Assembly (NCBI GenBank): GCA_026982655.1
Contig: JALSGO010000131.1
Location: 1-48,373, forward strand
DNA length: 48,373 bases
DNA from: Candidatus Bipolaricaulota bacterium
GTDB taxonomy: Bacteria > Bipolaricaulota > Bipolaricaulia > RBG-16-55-9
Direction of reading: 5' to 3'
The translations under genes and the position numbers were made by a program. Positions 26,534-27,333 of this stretch are shown piece after piece. Every line of letters starts with the position of its first letter. Position 1 is the stretch's first letter. A model generated the notes under the pieces. That model was not told the DNA's origin and searched no databases. It saw only the letters and a list, made by a program, of their open reading frames with translations.

Positions 26534-27034
26534 TTACTTCACCTTGATCTCGATCGTCTCCGGCTTGCGGAGGGACTTCTTCAAGGGCACCGCGACCCGG
26601 AGGACCCCGTTCTCGAAGTGGGCCTCGATCTTCTTAGCGTTCGAGGCGGCCTCCTCCGGGAGCTGGAAGACCCGCTGGACCCGTCCGTAGCGGCGGCCCA
26701 TGTAATAGTAGTCCTCCTCGTCGACCTCCTCCGTGCGCTTGATCTCGGCGGTGATCACCAAGCGGCCGTCCTGGACGCGCACGGAGACGTCGTCCTTTCG
26801 CACGCCGGGGAGTTCCGTCTCAAAGACGAGCATCCCGTCCTTCTCGTAGATGTCCGTCGCACCCCACGAGGAGAAGCGCCCCACGGGCCGAACCGCCAAG
26901 CGCTCCCGATCGCCGCCGTTGCCCGCGCTGAGCCACGGGCCGAAGAGCCGGTCCTCCAACTCCTCGAAGTCGCGGCGGATCTCCTCCAGCAGCCGGAACG
27001 GGCTCCACCGATCGCGCACCTCGAGCATCGCCAT
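26534..27034 (-). CDS. Small heat-shock protein, Hsp20/alpha-crystallin family
   Basis: 'YEKDGMLVFETELPGVRKDDVSVRVQDGRLVITAEIKR', 'FQLPEEAASNAKKIEAHFENGVLRVAVPLKK'; AAGGAGGTGA SD at 27041-27050. Confidence 0.95.
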   Translation of the reverse strand: MAMLEVRDRWSPFRLLEEIRRDFEELEDRLFGPWLSAGNGGDRERLAVRPVGRFSSWGATDIYEKDGMLVFETELPGVRKDDVSVRVQDGRLVITAEIKRTEEVDEEDYYYMGRRYGRVQRVFQLPEEAASNAKKIEAHFENGVLRVAVPLKKSLRKPETIEIKVK

Positions 27035-27050: not shown

Positions 27051-27077
27051 TTAGCAGTCTCTCATCTTGATTGCTAA
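27051..27077. promoter_or_regulatory. CIRCE-like element 1 (HrcA operator candidate)
   Basis: TTAGCAGTC-N9-GATTGCTAA versus consensus TTAGCACTC-N9-GAGTGCTAA. Confidence 0.8.
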
Positions 27078-27089
27078 TCATTCGGCCGT

Positions 27090-27118
27090 ATTATACCGCC
27101 GGACCGGAGGGGCGTCAA
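27090..27118 (-). promoter_or_regulatory. hsp20 promoter
   Basis: Minus strand TTGACG (27118-27113), 17-nt spacer, TATAAT (27095-27090). Confidence 0.8.
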
Positions 27119-27124
27119 GGGTAG

Positions 27125-27151
27125 TTGGCAGTCTCGCCATGGGATTGCTAA
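27125..27151. promoter_or_regulatory. CIRCE-like element 2
   Basis: TTGGCAGTC-N9-GATTGCTAA, same half-site family as element 1. Confidence 0.7.
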
Positions 27152-27173
27152 ATCGGGCCTCGGCGGGTATATT
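27145..27173 (+). promoter_or_regulatory. Divergent promoter for the 37-aa microprotein, -35 inside CIRCE-like element 2
   Basis: TTGCTA (27145-27150), 17-nt spacer, TATATT (27168-27173). Confidence 0.5.
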
Positions 27174-27219: not shown

Positions 27220-27333
27220 ATGCTCGGAGAGGTCCTTGTGCTCGTCGTCCTCCTGGGGATCCTGGCCCTGGCCTTGGGGTCGATCTTCGGGGCGGACCTG
27301 ACCCACCGACCGAAGGGCCGGGCCCAGCCTTGA
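27220..27333 (+). CDS. 37-aa single-TM microprotein (MLGEVLVLVVLLGILALALGSIFGADLTHRPKGRAQP)
   Basis: GGGAGGTGAGG SD upstream of ATG 27220; clear TM followed by a basic tail; promoter upstream. Confidence 0.5.
   Translation: MLGEVLVLVVLLGILALALGSIFGADLTHRPKGRAQP

Follow-up and report, generated by a model that had tools for sequence, protein, structure and literature searches.

Variant CIRCE-like elements on either side of an hsp20 promoter in a Bipolaricaulota genome, and an association of operator position 7 with HrcA residue 24

Results

The hsp20 locus and its two inverted repeats

The window, a stretch of 48,373 nucleotides, is the entire contig C131 of a Candidatus Bipolaricaulota genome (G000; 2.08 Mb, 169 contigs). 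On its minus strand lies hsp20 (26534–27034), encoding a 166-aa protein of the alpha-crystallin family (PF00011, E 6.8e−19). The predicted hsp20 promoter, TTGACG-17-TATAAT (27118–27090, minus strand), matched the sigma-70 consensus at 11/12 positions, against a mean of 0 in shuffled sequences, and was kept in the sister species G001. Two 27-bp inverted repeats, 74 bp apart, lie on either side of this promoter. Element 1 (TTAGCAGTC-TCTCATCTT-GATTGCTAA, 27051–27077) is located between the hsp20 −10 and the Shine-Dalgarno sequence, touching the latter, and spans +7 to +33 relative to the predicted start of hsp20 transcription. Element 2 (TTGGCAGTC-TCGCCATGG-GATTGCTAA, 27125–27151) is immediately 5′ of the hsp20 −35. 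An earlier note on this DNA had described the pair, and we recovered its exact sequences and positions as well as the spacing around the promoter.

Both elements have the 9-9-9 layout and TTAGCA/TGCTAA ends of CIRCE, one arm of element 2 reading TTGGCA. Strict CIRCE has C at position 7 of each arm. In place of the CTC inner triplet, each element carries one GTC and one ATC arm, so that, read arm by arm, its two arms are unlike at one inner position (CAGTC vs CAATC); the number of canonical half-sites was 0 in element 1 and 0 in element 2. On their sequence, the elements are thus classed as a variant of CIRCE and not as strict CIRCE. In a computational search allowing up to three mismatches, the window contained 2 sites (0.28 expected), each with 0 mismatches, and genome-wide there were 6 sites at up to one mismatch (~0.09 expected). 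The same pattern read backward as a control gave 0 sites genome-wide in G000. Compared with G001, whose hsp20 DNA was 86% identical, the arms of the two elements were identical at 18/18 and 17/18 positions and the spacers at 6/9 and 4/9, with the 74-bp spacing unchanged. As the arms were kept while the spacers diverged, selection appears to act on the arms. An operator of the element 1 type was found at hsp20 in 29/29 testable loci from G000 and its relatives, and element 2 in its position was limited to the genus (G000 and G001).

A single HrcA and its predicted regulon

The genome encodes a single HrcA (E 9.8e−47), whose C-terminal domain (PF01628) scored 158.3 bits against a curated cut-off of 22.2. 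As read from the ORFs, hrcA heads the gene order hrcA-grpE-dnaK-dnaJ and has an operator at its own start, ending 3 bp before the start codon. The six sites in G000 were located at hrcA-grpE-dnaK-dnaJ, groESL, clpB, hsp20 (two) and an operon of secreted protein, rhomboid and SDH_protease genes, all of them heat-shock promoters. In G001–G006, which belong to the same order, sites were found at hrcA, groESL, clpB or hsp20. The earlier note had read the elements as HrcA operators, naming the absence of HrcA and a different operator at groESL/dnaK as points against this reading. One HrcA was found, the operator type of the elements was common to hrcA/dnaK and groESL, and clpB carried a matching operator as well. 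Judged by these matches, elements 1 and 2 are very probably HrcA operators.

At the protease locus (L011; G000:C167, 2436–5270), the operator precedes a gene for a secreted 373-aa protein with no known Pfam family, followed by the rhomboid and SDH-type serine protease genes. Both the operon and its operator also occurred in G001 (L249), where the operator arms were the same and the spacer differed; the locus is a possible heat-induced membrane-proteolysis operon. The groESL-type site occurred once more in G001, on a short contig (L251) that gave no gene match.

The divergent side of the promoter

A divergent promoter proposed earlier, TTGCTA-17-TATATT (27145–27173, plus strand), did not hold up. 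It matched the consensus at only 9/12 positions, falls for the most part within sequence that G001 lacks and has a −10 region that is not conserved. Another candidate, TTGATT-16-TATTAT (27067–27094, plus strand), was present in both G000 and G001. Its −35 lies inside the right arm of element 1 and its −10 mirrors that of hsp20 on the opposite strand, the two hexamers overlapping as TATAAT (27095–27090, minus) and TATTAT (27089–27094, plus). The conservation of this candidate is not independent evidence, since its bases also serve the hsp20 −10 and element 1, for which they are conserved anyway. Assuming the usual 7-bp distance, the predicted starts are at 27083 and 27101, 18 bp apart, and element 2 corresponds to +25 to +51 of the predicted divergent transcript.

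A 37-aa gene for a hydrophobic membrane peptide (MLGEVLVLVVLLGILALALGSIFGADLTHRPKGRAQP) lies on the plus strand at 27220–27333. It was conserved divergently from hsp20 in G001 (75% identity) and G003 (49%), with changes by codon position of 11/3/12, mostly at first and third positions, and homologues were located away from hsp20 in G002 and G004. Element 2 of G001 stops a few bases short of the small gene's Shine-Dalgarno region, the position that element 1 takes at hsp20. In G003 element 2 is absent, yet the small gene is still divergent from hsp20. Regulation by heat in both directions, as the earlier note envisaged, may proceed through the candidate TTGATT-16-TATTAT and the small gene. Within family f1 (L308, L309), the small single-helix membrane peptide was encoded beside hsp20 in three genomes and near an S1-domain-like gene elsewhere in two; a search for homologues outside f1 gave no convincing matches.

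An altered operator code in Bipolaricaulota

CIRCE is generally described as nearly invariant among bacteria. Across Bipolaricaulota, a site was found at 50/52 hrcA loci and none had C7 in both arms, 41 having one C7 and 9 having no C7. At hsp20, 34/36 sites were without any C7; position 7 was mostly G/G and the commonest form was the symmetric TTAGCAGTC-N9-GACTGCTAA. One canonical arm was usually present at hrcA, and groESL likewise keeps one. The variant arms differed by family (GTC, AAC, GAC and ATC). The earlier note had suggested a lineage-specific code defined by CAGTC/GATTG. The lineage-specific part stood, as the altered code was phylum-wide, but its definition was too narrow. CAGTC/GATTG is a single member of a wider lineage code, which consists in the loss of C7 in one or both arms.

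HrcA residue 24 and operator position 7

We compared HrcA loci from 80 named genomes and then sampled further loci; the named loci were retrieved by recognition-helix patterns, which leaves HrcAs with any other helix under-represented. Proteins with P-[VI]-G-S ahead of HTH helix 2 had C7/C7 at hrcA and those with P-[VI]-S-S did not. Excluding 11 loci that lacked a site, 63/63 Ser24 loci were without a C7/C7 hrcA operator and 87/87 Gly24/Ala24 loci had one. In the HrcA tree, Ser24 occurred in all Bipolaricaulota (support 100/100) and in one Clostridia clade (support 99/84), at separate, supported places, and L223, the Gly24 sister of the Ser24 Clostridia clade, retained C7/C7. Residue 24 was the sole wing-helix column that separated both groups completely. 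In the AlphaFold model of HrcA (mean pLDDT 77), it directly precedes helix 25–32, the first HTH helix, and helix 38–50 is the presumed recognition helix. The solved HrcA of Thermotoga maritima (1stz) also has Ser at this position.

Exceptions occurred at sites other than hrcA. The basal Ser24 genome G060 had one C7/C7 site, and the Gly24 genomes G076 and G077 had one non-C7 site each. There were only two independent Gly-to-Ser events, and columns 29, 50 and 51 changed as well. The link of residue 24 to position 7 is therefore an association over two events, from which we infer a causal role without claiming proof. Two other residues were considered as candidates. Residue 26 (R/Q/K) was rejected as the specificity residue, R, K, Q and A each being found with C7/C7 in G24 proteins. 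Residue 29 alone showed a partial association, and the G24 sister L223 has V29 yet C7/C7.

In Bacteroidota, HrcA had G24 or A24 and a CIRCE-like site was not found at hrcA, which makes this phylum uninformative for residue 24. In the phylum of the Balneolaceae genome G068 (L275–L304), HrcA was common and a CIRCE-like repeat was not found at hrcA; the recognition helix there was mostly SDATIRNVM, vs SSATIRN(D/E)M.

Discussion

Taken as a whole, the data are best explained by operators of the single HrcA written in a variant of CIRCE, one for each divergent transcript, in a code that co-evolved with residue 24, and we consider this explanation likely. By analogy with known HrcA/CIRCE biology, an HrcA dimer bound to element 1 in the unstressed cell would cover the region in which hsp20 transcription begins, blocking RNA polymerase. 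Element 2 would lie in the leader of the divergent transcript, which would start at the shared bidirectional promoter and read into the small membrane-peptide gene; we infer that the plus-strand promoter is used. Given the positions of the elements, each divergent transcript would have its own operator just past its start, and heat would free both. The code itself would have changed together with HrcA, the Gly-to-Ser replacement at residue 24 accompanying the loss of strict C7.

Element 2 could instead be an auxiliary operator of hsp20, a second dimer near the −35 tightening repression sterically while the divergent gene is transcribed independently. We hold this to be a real possibility, at somewhat below even chance. 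Two CIRCE copies at one promoter have been reported for Lactococcus lactis dnaK and Lactobacillus plantarum hrcA, and other relatives of G000 gained second hsp20 operators, often abutting (26–27 bp), without a linked small gene; because of these gains, an auxiliary role explains the locus nearly as well. We nevertheless prefer one operator per transcript because element 2 of G001 ends just 5′ of the Shine-Dalgarno of the small gene, the same placement that element 1 has at hsp20. The earlier note had further suggested that the two elements could support looping, two HrcA dimers interacting to loop out the intervening 74 bp. This distance is about 7 helical turns and is exactly kept in G001, but two-operator hsp20 relatives space their sites at 26–27 or 96 bp, and 26–27 bp puts the sites on opposite helix faces. 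HrcA, moreover, is described as dimeric, and a loop of 74 bp is stiff. With the spacing this variable (26–27, 74 and 96 bp), looping as a conserved design was rejected, and looping at this locus is very unlikely. Two abutting operators 26–27 bp apart characterise the hsp20 loci L026, L033–L035, L037 and L039 of family f6, a layout separate from the 74-bp one.

The remaining alternatives concern the code. The operator changes could reflect drift under relaxed selection, unlinked to residue 24, with the association a phylogenetic coincidence of two clades. This reading deserves to be taken seriously, if with a little less than half of our belief, as the independent changes number only two and the variant arms vary among families. 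The variants are non-random, however. Most hsp20 sites are symmetric with G/G at position 7, species with diverged spacers share identical arms, and C7 was kept at all of the Gly/Ala24 sites counted (87/87). A different repressor might also have taken over the heat-shock genes and own the sites, as inner triplets unlike those of CIRCE could suggest. We regard this as extremely improbable, given that the sites share the 9-9-9 layout and the TTAGCA...TGCTAA ends of CIRCE and that the site stands directly 5′ of hrcA itself in nearly all relatives tested.

With the preferred reading of one HrcA operator per divergent transcript, the system can be set beside known ones. It shares with the HrcA/CIRCE of the Bacillus subtilis type (TTAGCACTC-N9-GAGTGCTAA) the repressor family, the 9-9-9 repeat with outer TTAGCA/TGCTAA, the targets hrcA-grpE-dnaK-dnaJ and groESL, and the placement after the start site. 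In contrast to that type, at least one arm here has G or A at position 7, HrcA has Ser24, and hsp20, clpB and the protease operon are added as targets. In L. plantarum, a CIRCE beginning a few bases past the transcription start has been reported (PMC1676014), as have HrcA sites at the small heat-shock gene hsp1. Two HrcA operators per promoter are shared with L. lactis dnaK and L. plantarum hrcA; unlike there, the promoter here is that of hsp20, the two elements flank a divergent promoter and both are variants. The overlapping −10s on both strands and predicted starts 18 bp apart also match symmetrical −10 bidirectional promoters (Warman/Grainger; PMC12825309), in which 18 bp is the commonest distance between starts. 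They differ in that a predicted repressor operator stands on each side here and the divergent start is predicted from sequence alone.

The elements belong to a kind of HrcA operator that is already known; the lineage variant of the code appears to be new, and the most interesting result, the co-variation of residue and operator, lies outside the window and is testable. A lineage-wide change of CIRCE tied to an HrcA residue was not found in the literature searched, to which subscription papers mostly did not belong, and its novelty is unproven. Strict CIRCE searches would overlook the HrcA regulons of an entire phylum. Tentatively, and with rather more doubt than conviction, we propose that CIRCE position 7 was rewritten at least twice, each time alongside the replacement of Gly by Ser as the N-cap residue of HTH helix 2, and that gene-graded operators set the threshold of hsp20. 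If true, the grading (a single canonical arm at hrcA/groESL against zero at hsp20) would give hsp20 a response threshold of its own. Two lineages with changed CIRCE, one candidate residue and matched sister taxa with the old code make this repressor–operator co-evolution testable by swapping a single residue and a single base.

The Ser24 Clostridia clade (G060, G061, G063, G064, G065, G067; L202, L203, L206) also showed a distinct arrangement at hrcA, often with two operators ~50 bp apart and with TTGACA (a −35) within the spacer of the upstream one.
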